Both the position numbers and the translations under genes were made by a program. The notes under the pieces are model-generated. The model saw nothing but the letters and a program-made list of their open reading frames with translations. It made no database searches and was not told the origin of the DNA. DNA of 37,879 nt from Bacteroidota bacterium (GTDB taxonomy: Bacteria > Bacteroidota > Bacteroidia > SXHM01): the NCBI GenBank assembly GCA_947479755.1, contig CANKAM010000008.1:1-37879 (forward strand), in the 5' to 3' direction. Of the stretch, positions 20,930 through 24,045 are shown piece by piece (positions within the stretch are counted from its first letter, which is position 1; every line of letters starts with the position of its first letter).

Positions 20930-22294
20930 CTACTCTTTCACAAATTTTTTACTTACTACTTCTGTGCCGTTGGTAAGGCTGAGGAAGTAGATGCCGGAAG
21001 AGAGGGAAGAAATATCGAATGTCGAATGTTGAACATCGAATGTTGAATGAAAGACCAATTGCCCTTGGGCGTTATGAATTTGTAGTTGTGCGTTCTTTAG
21101 GTTTAGGTCGGTATTAATTGTTAAAGTGTTGGTGGCGGGGTTGGGGTAGAGGGTGAGATTTGTTTTGTTGTCAACTTCTGTAATACTTAGCATATAATCA
21201 TAATAATAATCAGTGGTATAATTGTTTTCAAGGTTTTCACCGTTTTGAAACAGCAGATTAAGAATGTTGCTGTTATCGTCAAACTCGTATGTGTACTTGT
21301 GTGCAATATGCCACGCATTGTCGGTCATGTATTCGCCCAATACACTTGTATTGTTATTGTTGGAATCATAGGTGTAAGTAGCTCTTCCGTCAGACACCCA
21401 AATTGTATCATAGAATGATTCTGATAAACCGGTTAGTTGATTATTGTTTGAGTCGTAAGTGTTAATAAACCGATGATTGTCTCTCCAAACAGAATCTGCC
21501 CAGAATTGATATAATTCCAGTATTTTATTATTGTTGTTATCGTAGCTGTAGATGTATCTGTCGCCATTAAGCCAAATAGTATCGTTCCACATATAGTTGG
21601 TATATCCGGTTGTAAGGTTGTTTATATCATAAGTATAGGTGTACATATGGTTGTTTACCCACGTATTATTTATCCATTGCTGACCGGTTTCGCTTATTTT
21701 GTTGTTGTTACTATCGTAATCCATTAAATCTAAAGTACTATTTACCCATTCTGTTCCGTTGGATGTTTTATATAGCAGGCTTGTTCTGTTATTATTCAAA
21801 TCATAGGTTAGGAAAGATTGACTACCGGTGAACATTGAATCGGAACCTGATACCCATTCGGTAAATATTATATTATTGTTCAGGTCGTAATCCAAGGTGT
21901 ACTCGCTGTCTGTGCTCCAACTTCCATTGTTCCAGGTTTGTTGTGTTTTATGTAAAAGATTGCCGTTGAGGCTGTGATTAAAAAGTTGACGGAAGGAATT
22001 TACCCAAATACTGTCTTGCCAAACCTCCCGTAAATCCATTGTAAGATGCTGGTTTAGGTCATAAGAAAATGTTTGTTTGAAACGGTTGAGCCAATCGTTG
22101 CTTTCCCACCATATTTCGGTAGAAGTAATTAGTTTCCCATCAGTGTTGTATTGATATATTTCTTTGCGATTGTATTCCCATTCATTTAATGAACTATTCC
22201 AGTTCCATGTATAGGTGCTATCGAGCAGGCTTTCTTGTGCAAAACTATTGCAGGTAAATAGTATAGCAAGTAGAAGTAGAATATGTTTTTTCAT
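20930..22294 (-). CDS. T9SS-secreted protein with 29-residue YD-type repeats
   Basis: 454 residues. A signal peptide (about 1-19, ending SFAQ) is followed by ten or so repeats, nine of them almost exactly 29 residues long (about 78-338), each starting with Y-D-x-N-N-N and carrying W near positions 15 and 20. The C-terminal domain (about 375-454), with LYPNPATNTLTI and the end VSKKFVKE, is a type A T9SS sorting signal, so the protein is exported and probably anchored on the cell surface. The repeat recalls YD/RHS repeats but lacks their glycines. No partner gene is adjacent. Function is unknown; adhesion or surface-layer roles are guesses. Confidence 0.9.
   Translation of the reverse strand: MKKHILLLLAILFTCNSFAQESLLDSTYTWNWNSSLNEWEYNRKEIYQYNTDGKLITSTEIWWESNDWLNRFKQTFSYDLNQHLTMDLREVWQDSIWVNSFRQLFNHSLNGNLLHKTQQTWNNGSWSTDSEYTLDYDLNNNIIFTEWVSGSDSMFTGSQSFLTYDLNNNRTSLLYKTSNGTEWVNSTLDLMDYDSNNNKISETGQQWINNTWVNNHMYTYTYDINNLTTGYTNYMWNDTIWLNGDRYIYSYDNNNNKILELYQFWADSVWRDNHRFINTYDSNNNQLTGLSESFYDTIWVSDGRATYTYDSNNNNTSVLGEYMTDNAWHIAHKYTYEFDDNSNILNLLFQNGENLENNYTTDYYYDYMLSITEVDNKTNLTLYPNPATNTLTINTDLNLKNAQLQIHNAQGQLVFHSTFDVQHSTFDISSLSSGIYFLSLTNGTEVVSKKFVKE
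21013..21050. repeat. TCGAATGT-type short repeat inside the T9SS sorting domain
   Basis: TCGAATG, TCGAATGTTG, AACATCGAATG and TTGAATG follow one another. On the minus strand they encode FHSTFDVQHSTFD, in which STFD occurs twice, just before the conserved ISSLSSGIYFLSL of the sorting domain. The repeat style is that of intergenic DNA, and it is kept in frame. Confidence 0.55.
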
Positions 22295-22643
22295 TTGTGT
22301 TTTTTACAAATGTCAGACTTTGCAGTGCTGCCGTTACACTAAGTTTTTGCATTATTATACACTTCCAAAAACAAAAATACTCCGCTGCTCAGCAAGATAT
22401 TTAGCTTTCTAACTCAAAACTATTAGTCGCAATCAAATTTTTCTTTTTTATGATCTGTCATCGCCTGAAAAACAATTTGGAATAGTGGCTGTCAGTAAAG
22501 GGCGGATTATAAATGTTACCACTCCATCTGCAAATGTTTTTAAGTTCGAATAGTGTAGTTTATGAAAGTCAGGGTTGCAATATATTCTGATGTTTGTTGT
22601 TATTTTTAAGGTTTATTTATTGGTTTTATATATAAAATGTCAA
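22295..22643. other. Gene-free A+T-rich stretch upstream of the T9SS gene
   Basis: No frame worth calling on either strand. The only signal is CAAAAATA at 22372-22379, which on the minus strand reads TATTTTTG (a TAnnTTTG match) and could be the -7 box of the T9SS cargo gene, with a leader of about 70 bases. No -33 box at normal spacing. The remainder shows nothing I can name. Confidence 0.35.
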
Positions 22644-22916
22644 TCTAACTAGAAAAATTGTTTCTCTAACTAGTTTGACCATCACTCTAACTATAAAAAC
22701 CAATTATCTAACTAGATTGGCCGTTTCTCTAACTATAAAAATTATCTCTCTAACTAGTTTGACCATCACTCTAATTAGAAAAACCAATTATCTAACTAGT
22801 TTGACTGTTTCTCTAACCAGAAAAAGTGTCTCTCTAACTAGTTTGTCCGTCACTCTAACTAGAAAAAGTGTTTTGCTAACTAGTTTGCTTGTATCTCTAA
22901 CTAGTTTGACAATTTC
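22644..22916. repeat. 21-bp tandem array, 13 units, with 42- and 84-bp order
   Basis: Thirteen 21-bp units start every 21 bases from 22644 to 22896. Each begins TCTAACTAG or a one- to two-base variant. Units alternate between a type continuing TTTGnCC (22665, 22707, 22749, 22791, 22833, 22875) and a type continuing AAAAA (22644, 22686, 22728, 22770, 22812, 22854); the last unit breaks the pattern. Units at 22665 and 22749 are identical, and units 2-5 resemble 6-9, giving an 84-bp super-repeat. The TTTG type contains the 8-bp palindrome AACTAGTT. Frames are open only because 21 is a multiple of three; no protein is recognisable. Confidence 0.93.
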
Positions 22917-23217
22917 TATGTTTGGAGCGACTATTTCCATATTCAAAGAACAATGCTGCAAACATGAAAAGGATAGTAATACAGGTCAAGTTGTAATCTT
23001 ACGACAAAGGTACTAAGGCCCCTAACATGTCCGAGCACCAGCGCTCTGTAAAAAGCCATCAAATTGCTCCGCGCCTTCGCGGTAAAAAAAATGTATCCCC
23101 CCTTATGGAAATACTCCCGCCTTTGCATCTTATAATCGGAGCACACAATAAACTTGAACGTTCTCCGTTATCATACTAAGGTCTCACCATTTATTCATCT
23201 TTTAAAACAAACAAACC
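22917..23217. other. Gene-free region upstream of the TonB gene
   Basis: Contains the degenerating end of the 21-bp array (to about 22930) and a short dispersed-repeat copy at 23067-23090. No convincing gene and no clear TAnnTTTG box before the TonB start at 23218; the nearest partial match is CGCCTTTG around 23120-23127. Confidence 0.4.
23067..23090. repeat. Second copy of the GCGCCTTCGCGGTAAAAA dispersed repeat
   Basis: CTCCGCGCCTTCGCGG followed by an A-run matches the words GCGCCTTTGCGGTAAAAA and CTCCGCGTCTCTGCTGTAAAAAA of the element at 1722-1827. Both copies are intergenic and both lie near a 21-bp array. Confidence 0.5.
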
Positions 23218-24045
23218 ATGAAAATCAATTTAATCAGCGAGTGGGGTAATGTTGTTTCAAACGTGCGCAACAACATTGTTTTTGAACACCGTAACCAAGC
23301 CTATGGAGCCTATTTCATTCGCAGGGAGTATCCGCGCACCATGTTCTTTTCGCTTTTTGTTACCGTGTCGGTTATTGCGTTGGGTGTGGCAGGTTTAAAG
23401 CTGTCGAGTTATTTGTCTGCGAAAATTGTGGAGGTAATTGTGCCCGTAACCAACACACCTATTGAAATCATTACACCTGTTGAGCTAAAACCACTGGAAA
23501 CCCCTCTGGTAAAAATGGAACCCATGAAAACTCCACCTCCTCCAAAAGGAACGGAGTTTACCGCACCCGTAGTTAGTGATGACAAAGAAAAGATAGAAGA
23601 AAAGCCTTTTTCTCAGGAAGAAATAAAGCCCGGAAAAGTGGATGGAGTGGATAACGACAGTGCAATAGTAATTCCTGAAACTCCAACAAAAGGAAAAGGT
23701 GTAGTAGCCGTTGACACCGTTGAAAAAGTGCTCGACTTTGTTGATGTCAATCCTTCTTTTCCGGGAGGAGAAGCAAAGATGTATGAGTTCATTTCTCAGA
23801 AAACAAAATACCCGTCACAGGAAAAAGAGAATGGAATTTCAGGAACAGTGTATGTAAGTTTTACCGTTGATAAAGCCGGAAAAATAAAAGATGTTGTTAT
23901 AGAACGAGGTGTAACCCACGGCCCCAATCTTGCAAAAGAGGCGCAACGGGTAATCGGACTTATGCCTGAATGGAAGCCGGGAATTTATAAAGGACAAACG
24001 GTGTCGGTACGTTACCGTATGCCAATCAATTTTGTGTTGCGATAA
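23218..24045 (+). CDS. TonB-family energy transducer
   Basis: 275 residues. A cytoplasmic N-terminus with FEHRNQAYGAYFIRREYP (a block typical of Bacteroidota TonB proteins) leads to one membrane helix (about 42-61), a periplasmic Pro-rich linker (MKTPPPPKG, about 103-111), and a C-terminal TonB domain (about 180-275, FPGGEAKMYEFISQKTKYP, then GTVYVSFTVDKAGKI). It passes proton-motive force from ExbB/ExbD to outer-membrane receptors such as the one at 9127. No exbB or exbD lies next to it. It converges on gpsA with 4 bp between the stops. Confidence 0.93.
   Translation: MKINLISEWGNVVSNVRNNIVFEHRNQAYGAYFIRREYPRTMFFSLFVTVSVIALGVAGLKLSSYLSAKIVEVIVPVTNTPIEIITPVELKPLETPLVKMEPMKTPPPPKGTEFTAPVVSDDKEKIEEKPFSQEEIKPGKVDGVDNDSAIVIPETPTKGKGVVAVDTVEKVLDFVDVNPSFPGGEAKMYEFISQKTKYPSQEKENGISGTVYVSFTVDKAGKIKDVVIERGVTHGPNLAKEAQRVIGLMPEWKPGIYKGQTVSVRYRMPINFVLR

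Follow-up and report, generated by a model that had tools for sequence, protein, structure and literature searches.

The DNA analysed here, called the window throughout, opens contig 8 of a Bacteroidia genome of 3.9 Mb and is 37,879 bases long; the genus is the sole one of its order among the genomes compared. A gene for a T9SS cargo protein with a C-terminal sorting domain (20930..22294, minus strand; Por_Secre_tail, E=2.5e-17) and a gene for a protein with a TonB C-terminal domain (23218..24045, plus strand; TonB_C, E=1.2e-15) flank a tandem array of 13 units of 21 bp (22644..22916). An earlier sequence-only reading had proposed these identities for the flanking genes, which the domain matches confirmed, and its description of the array was also borne out. 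Units start at 22644+21k (k=0-12) with zero indels, and units of an AAAAA type and a (T/A)TTG type alternate up to unit 12, while unit 13 breaks the pattern. Neighbouring units (distance 1) have a mean identity of 0.58, compared to 0.75 for units at distance 2 and 0.86 for those at distance 4, the last reflecting an 84-bp super-repeat in which units 2-5 resemble units 6-9. TRF reported periods of 21, 42 and 84, and the lag-84 score was 114.5, compared to a maximum of 14 in 300 Markov shuffles keeping dinucleotide frequency. These unit identities are consistent with the proposed growth by duplication of 42- and 84-bp blocks, and arrays of congeners differ by whole units. A fixed core had likewise been claimed, and columns 1-8 (TCTAACTA) are indeed 97% conserved versus 64% in the other columns (contiguity P=1e-4). 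The palindrome AACTAGTT is private to this array.

We infer that the array is transcribed from the minus strand, on the basis of a boxA-like element and a gene remnant on its two sides. The boxA-like element, GTTCTTTGA (22943..22951, minus strand), lies about 30 nt ahead of the first unit and follows a putative -7 promoter element, CATGTTTG (22959..22966, minus strand; 5/6 match to TAnnTTTG). A TTG located 20 nt ahead of the -7 element (22987..22989, minus strand) is what we take to be the -33 element, going by the Bacteroidota promoter consensus; promoters of Bacteroidota are unlike the sigma-70 type. Read along the minus strand, the order is thus TTG (22989-22987), 20 nt, CATGTTTG (22966-22959), boxA (22951-22943) and then the array. 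The 9-mer GTTCTTTGA was found repeatedly at one end of several arrays, and it is also present in the rRNA leaders of the congeners G002, G004 and G005, at positions -126/-128 and -337 to -382 relative to the 16S rRNA. At sequence level, a boxA as in rRNA leaders thus follows a putative promoter. It is one base off the gamma-proteobacterial boxA consensus GYTCTTTAANA (PMC5725501).

Exact CGTTCTTTGAAT sites occur 13 times in seven congeneric genomes. Eight of them are intergenic, and each of these is followed at once by a 21-bp array of the same orientation; the remaining five are one coding gene in four copies and one odd GC-rich sequence. Further arrays are led by a second boxA form, GCTCTTTGACATACTG. 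A match of at least 5/6 to TAnnTTTG was present upstream of boxA in 17 of 20 boxA-led leaders, compared to 18% of shuffles. Separately, a repeat at many contig ends of G000 (e.g. L176, L185, L193, L197, L199 and L202-L204) carries GTTCTTTGAAATATTG near the contig end and is probably a multi-copy element bearing a boxA-like sequence.

The genes downstream of boxA-led arrays mostly belong to one protein family, which we call fam5 (232-241 aa, about 236, with a C-terminus that weakly matches fibronectin type III); two more small families, fam8 (MAxxFPxKDADFNDYFG) and MSGNRINKKDSAFDQYL, were also found there. At intact loci the start codon comes next after the array, mostly about 50-150 nt away. 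Beyond the window array, in the same direction, lies the decayed 5' part of a fam5 gene (22438..22585, minus strand; IHCNKDY...LKTFADGV), detected by tblastn (E=4e-6, in two frames) and by blastn against the intact loci L166 and L164; its start codon is lost and its frame is shifted. Cassettes of promoter, boxA, array and fam5 gene are intact elsewhere in this genome and in congeners. The window array is closest to such an intact cassette, located on contig 6 (0.67), pointing to a shared origin of the two cassettes. At the same tonB locus, the congeners G006 and G003 carry unrelated 20/21-bp arrays, each followed in the same direction by a fam5 remnant, there the last 40-60 codons. The window array therefore probably served as transcribed leader to a gene that is now decayed.

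The sequence-only reading had linked the array to the two genes on its sides. A regulation of the T9SS and TonB genes is not supported and was discarded, because the array has its own promoter-boxA unit on the minus strand as well as a fam5 remnant, and because G002 and G004 keep tonB without the array, an absence that the same reading had named as evidence against this part of its proposal. Instead, we consider it likely that the window array belongs, as 5' untranslated leader, to a minus-strand cassette composed of promoter, boxA, 21-nt array and fam5, in which the protein gene has decayed.

To determine how closely such arrays are tied to genes, fam5 genes were gathered by protein profile, independently of repeats, and a stretch of at most 750 nt ahead of each was scored, a score of at least 20 counting as an array. 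Within the genus, 26 of 28 fam5 genes have an upstream array, as do 17 of 22 fam5-like genes from the rest of the class, these latter cases spanning several bacterial families; the background in random 750-bp windows was 4.5% and 2.5%, respectively. Since the loci are the best matches per search and include near-orthologues, these counts overstate independence. The fundamental period was exactly 21 in 36 of the 43 fam5 arrays (best lags of the other seven: 83, 43, 41, 14, 62, 66 and 83), and the leaders hold up to about 19 units of 21 nt. A second family, fam1 (about 300-340 aa), sits downstream of 41/42-bp arrays: an array was detected in 21 of 25 leaders, with a lag of 41 or 42 or double this value and mostly without a 21-bp half-period. 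Similar arrays, each with its own sequence and nearly always with a 21- or 42-base rhythm, thus precede two uncharacterised protein families across the class. The boxA was present in 16 of 28 fam5 leaders inside the genus and in none of 22 outside, and hence it is not obligatory in the leader or its sequence differs outside the genus.

The sequence-only reading had suggested to search the genome for other arrays with the same core and to compare unit numbers between relatives. As a tandem array, the core occurs nowhere else in the 3.9-Mb genome, but a related array was detected at G000:C6:19787-20246. Since a search with the core returned just the window array and one related site, motif searches miss the array class. 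A census by lag, covering 1.22 Mb of the same genome and 0.4 Mb of the congener G002, revealed 37 arrays outside evident long repeat-protein genes; most have a period of 21, 42, 63 or 84, and their sequences are unrelated. Unit numbers were compared in two orthologous pairs of boxA-led arrays from G000 and G004 (L169 versus L161 and L171 versus L170), which differ by whole units. Array similarity between close relatives can reach 0.90-0.93, and syntenic arrays of G000 and G002 score 0.43-0.52, about as unlike as unrelated arrays (mean 0.44, SD 0.07). Syntenic divergence and whole-unit differences together indicate that the period of an array outlasts its sequence. The conserved core is strong in the window array, but in general an 8-nt core reached p<0.05 in just 3 of 35 fam5 arrays.

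The fast sequence turnover, the unit numbers differing among congeners and the visible 42/84-bp block duplication would all be expected of a neutral product of replication slippage that the leader tolerates, an origin which the sequence-only reading had also allowed. Slippage alone is however unlikely, because it predicts neither a common period nor a linkage to particular genes, and a 21-bp period recurs in most of dozens of unrelated arrays, and in several bacterial families most fam5 and fam1 genes have an array ahead of them. The boxA and promoter kept in leaders of the genus and the contiguous core conservation in the window array also argue against neutrality, which we regard as very improbable.

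Many arrays have no adjoining fam5 or fam1 gene; that these are relics is, a few cases aside, a guess. The window itself has a second 21-bp array with a CTGTTTTCCCATCCC core at 1452-1659, between a gene for a 242-aa protein and a type III glutamine synthetase gene, next to which neither boxA nor a fam5 or fam1 remnant was seen. The array at G000:C4:111833-111966 is without boxA and has a GTTATCACC core in common with the boxA-led cassette G000:C32:12938; possibly it is an orphan like the window array. A 41-bp array with the palindrome TGTGGCGGCCACA (G000:C6:87418-87692) lies ahead of an unrelated gene, and the same motif is found in the leader of a fam1 gene of G002 (L277). The interval between gyrB and a secreted-protein gene contains arrays of unrelated sequence in G000 (C6:101021-101395, 21 bp) and G002 (C1:357684-357952, 42 bp), with no fam5 or fam1 gene.

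Repeats of other periods were observed as well. Three near-perfect 47-bp tandem copies (G000:C6:13981-14134) are outside the 21-bp series, arrays of heptamers, for example (GTTTTGG)n and (TTCTCTG)n, occur in the outgroup genome G007 (L150-L152), and an array of the congener G003 has a 32-bp period, about three helical turns (L086:15048-15212). L085, L086 and L090 are contigs of congener MAGs labelled Chitinophaga pinensis; by taxonomy they belong to the sole genus of its own order, and the label is probably wrong.

A unit of 21 nt equals seven codons, and the arrays might contain upstream open reading frames for heptad-repeat peptides. Most periods are divisible by 3, and 51 open frames were counted on the sense strand, compared to 32.9 expected from column-permuted controls. 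The antisense excess is however similar (44 versus 31.4), variable columns show no codon-phase pattern (p=0.72) and some arrays have periods of 20, 41, 43, 62 or 83. Moreover, stop codons interrupt every sense frame of many arrays, and in the window array every frame of the transcribed strand is stopped. No open sense frame with codon-phase constraint was thus found, and we reject a heptad coding sequence, to which we give hardly any credence.

The arrangement of promoter, noncoding tandem-repeat leader and protein gene resembles type III toxin-antitoxin systems (ToxIN, PMC8860590; CptIN, PMC4627078), in which case the array RNA units would be bound by the downstream protein and restrain it. 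As in those loci, a promoter lies upstream of the repeats and the tandem repeats are located between promoter and gene; in addition, the unit type tracks the protein family (21 with fam5, 41/42 with fam1). The features of type III systems also include a short hairpin terminator ahead of the toxin gene and a ToxN-type endoribonuclease (PMC8860590), and only 3 of the 43 fam5 leaders, and likewise 3 of the 21 fam1 leaders, have such a terminator between array and gene. Pfam recognised neither a toxin family nor a DNA-binding domain in the fam5 and fam1 proteins, just the weak fn3 match in fam5, and for fam5 no NCBIfam or PADLOC model matched, leaving no candidate for a ToxN-, CptN- or TenpN-type endoribonuclease; a search for known functions of fam1 gave nothing firm. 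Unlike type III loci, the arrays have 21-nt units in up to about 19 copies, with sequences unrelated between loci. A type III-like mode of action therefore appears improbable.

Unique spacers as in CRISPR arrays are absent from the window array, in which whole 21-bp units recur, with 86% identity at distance 4 over all 21 columns, and no Cas protein was recognised among the listed nearest neighbours of the arrays. By the features tested, the array belongs neither to the type III toxin-antitoxin loci nor to the CRISPR arrays. CRISPR arrays led by a boxA exist. They are similar to the leaders described here in that boxA comes soon after the promoter and an untranslated region follows; the leaders differ in having a spacer-less 21-nt tandem array and uncharacterised downstream genes, and in carrying boxA in 16 of 28 cases within the genus. 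Plasmid iterons are direct repeats spaced about two helical turns, whereas our arrays are chromosomal, occur at many loci with unrelated sequences and are in a leader position. The likeness and the differences noted for CRISPR leaders apply equally to the boxA-controlled 5' UTRs that exist outside rRNA, for instance that of suhB (PMC5725501). The TAACTGA direct repeats of five Bacteroidetes and many Cyanobacteria are also intergenic and upstream of start codons, but they consist of one fixed heptamer with 2-6 copies per set in the main genome and patternless downstream genes (PMC4679880), whereas our arrays combine private sequences with a common 21-bp period, which rules this class out. No Rfam 15 family matched the window or ten leader loci. 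In a limited literature search (21-bp Bacteroidetes arrays, fibronectin-gene repeats, boxA leaders), we found no earlier description of the array-leader arrangement.

How would such a cassette work when it is intact? RNA polymerase would start just ahead of boxA, and boxA may recruit NusB and NusE (S10) and thereby shield the long untranslated leader from Rho. Transcription would continue through about 250-400 nt of repeats and arrive at the fam5 start codon some 50-150 nt further on. Near-identical units keep the 21-bp, two-turn spacing; their sequence is private to the locus, homogenised within the array and changed between species. Most likely, the array would serve as a multivalent binding platform, in the leader RNA or in the DNA, and adjust how strongly the downstream gene is expressed, and the fam5 product itself might bind its own array. 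Spacing, more than sequence, thus seems to be what is maintained in this boxA-led untranslated leader array.

The two forms of such a platform are favoured by different observations. On the sense strand, fam5 arrays show a skew of A over T in 34 of 43 cases, which points to RNA or a transcription-linked bias, while the two-turn period and the lack of a G-U preference lean to DNA. Potential stems in the arrays have no excess of G-U over A-C, and RNA hairpins selected on the sense strand were rejected for this reason. At the DNA level, a protein, perhaps the fam5 or fam1 product, could sit on one face of the duplex with two turns per unit and use the array as an autoregulatory operator in the transcribed leader, boxA merely aiding the polymerase. 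Most arrays have a period that corresponds to exactly two turns of B-DNA in fam5 and to about four in fam1, and dyad potential is mildly enriched (p<0.05 in 10 of 39 fam5 and 6 of 21 fam1 units) without the G-U bias of RNA stems. Of the 21 fam1 consensus units, 6 have A/T tracts spaced at 10-11 bp, but the tracts of fam5 units are not spaced in this way, and A-tract curvature was consequently discarded as an explanation. The sense-strand A skew and the lack of a DNA-binding domain recognised by Pfam also speak against DNA phasing. So do the periods of 20, 20.7, 21.5 or 22 in some arrays, which would drift out of phase within some 10 units. The two-turn spacing of the sequence-only reading is supported in a broader form, as a 21- or 42-bp period common to most unrelated arrays. 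Phased binding to DNA is, on this balance, a possibility that we view with some doubt.

The leader of a boxA-led cassette with a decayed gene remains our preferred reading of the window array, which would then be what is left once the gene dies, an orphan that resembles an isolated curiosity. A more speculative extension is that cassettes of this type are class-wide in Bacteroidia and that each paralog recognises its private leader array; selection might act on the 21-nt spacing and on the matching of protein and array, not on a fixed sequence, and orthogonal couples of protein and nucleic acid would result. This raises the question why two-turn spacing persists while the letters change. Homology and motif searches of the usual kind would overlook a cis element that is defined by a period of 21 or 42 bp, not by its sequence, and that is tied to particular protein families in several bacterial families, and with it two protein families without assigned function, fam5 and fam1, gain a testable partner.
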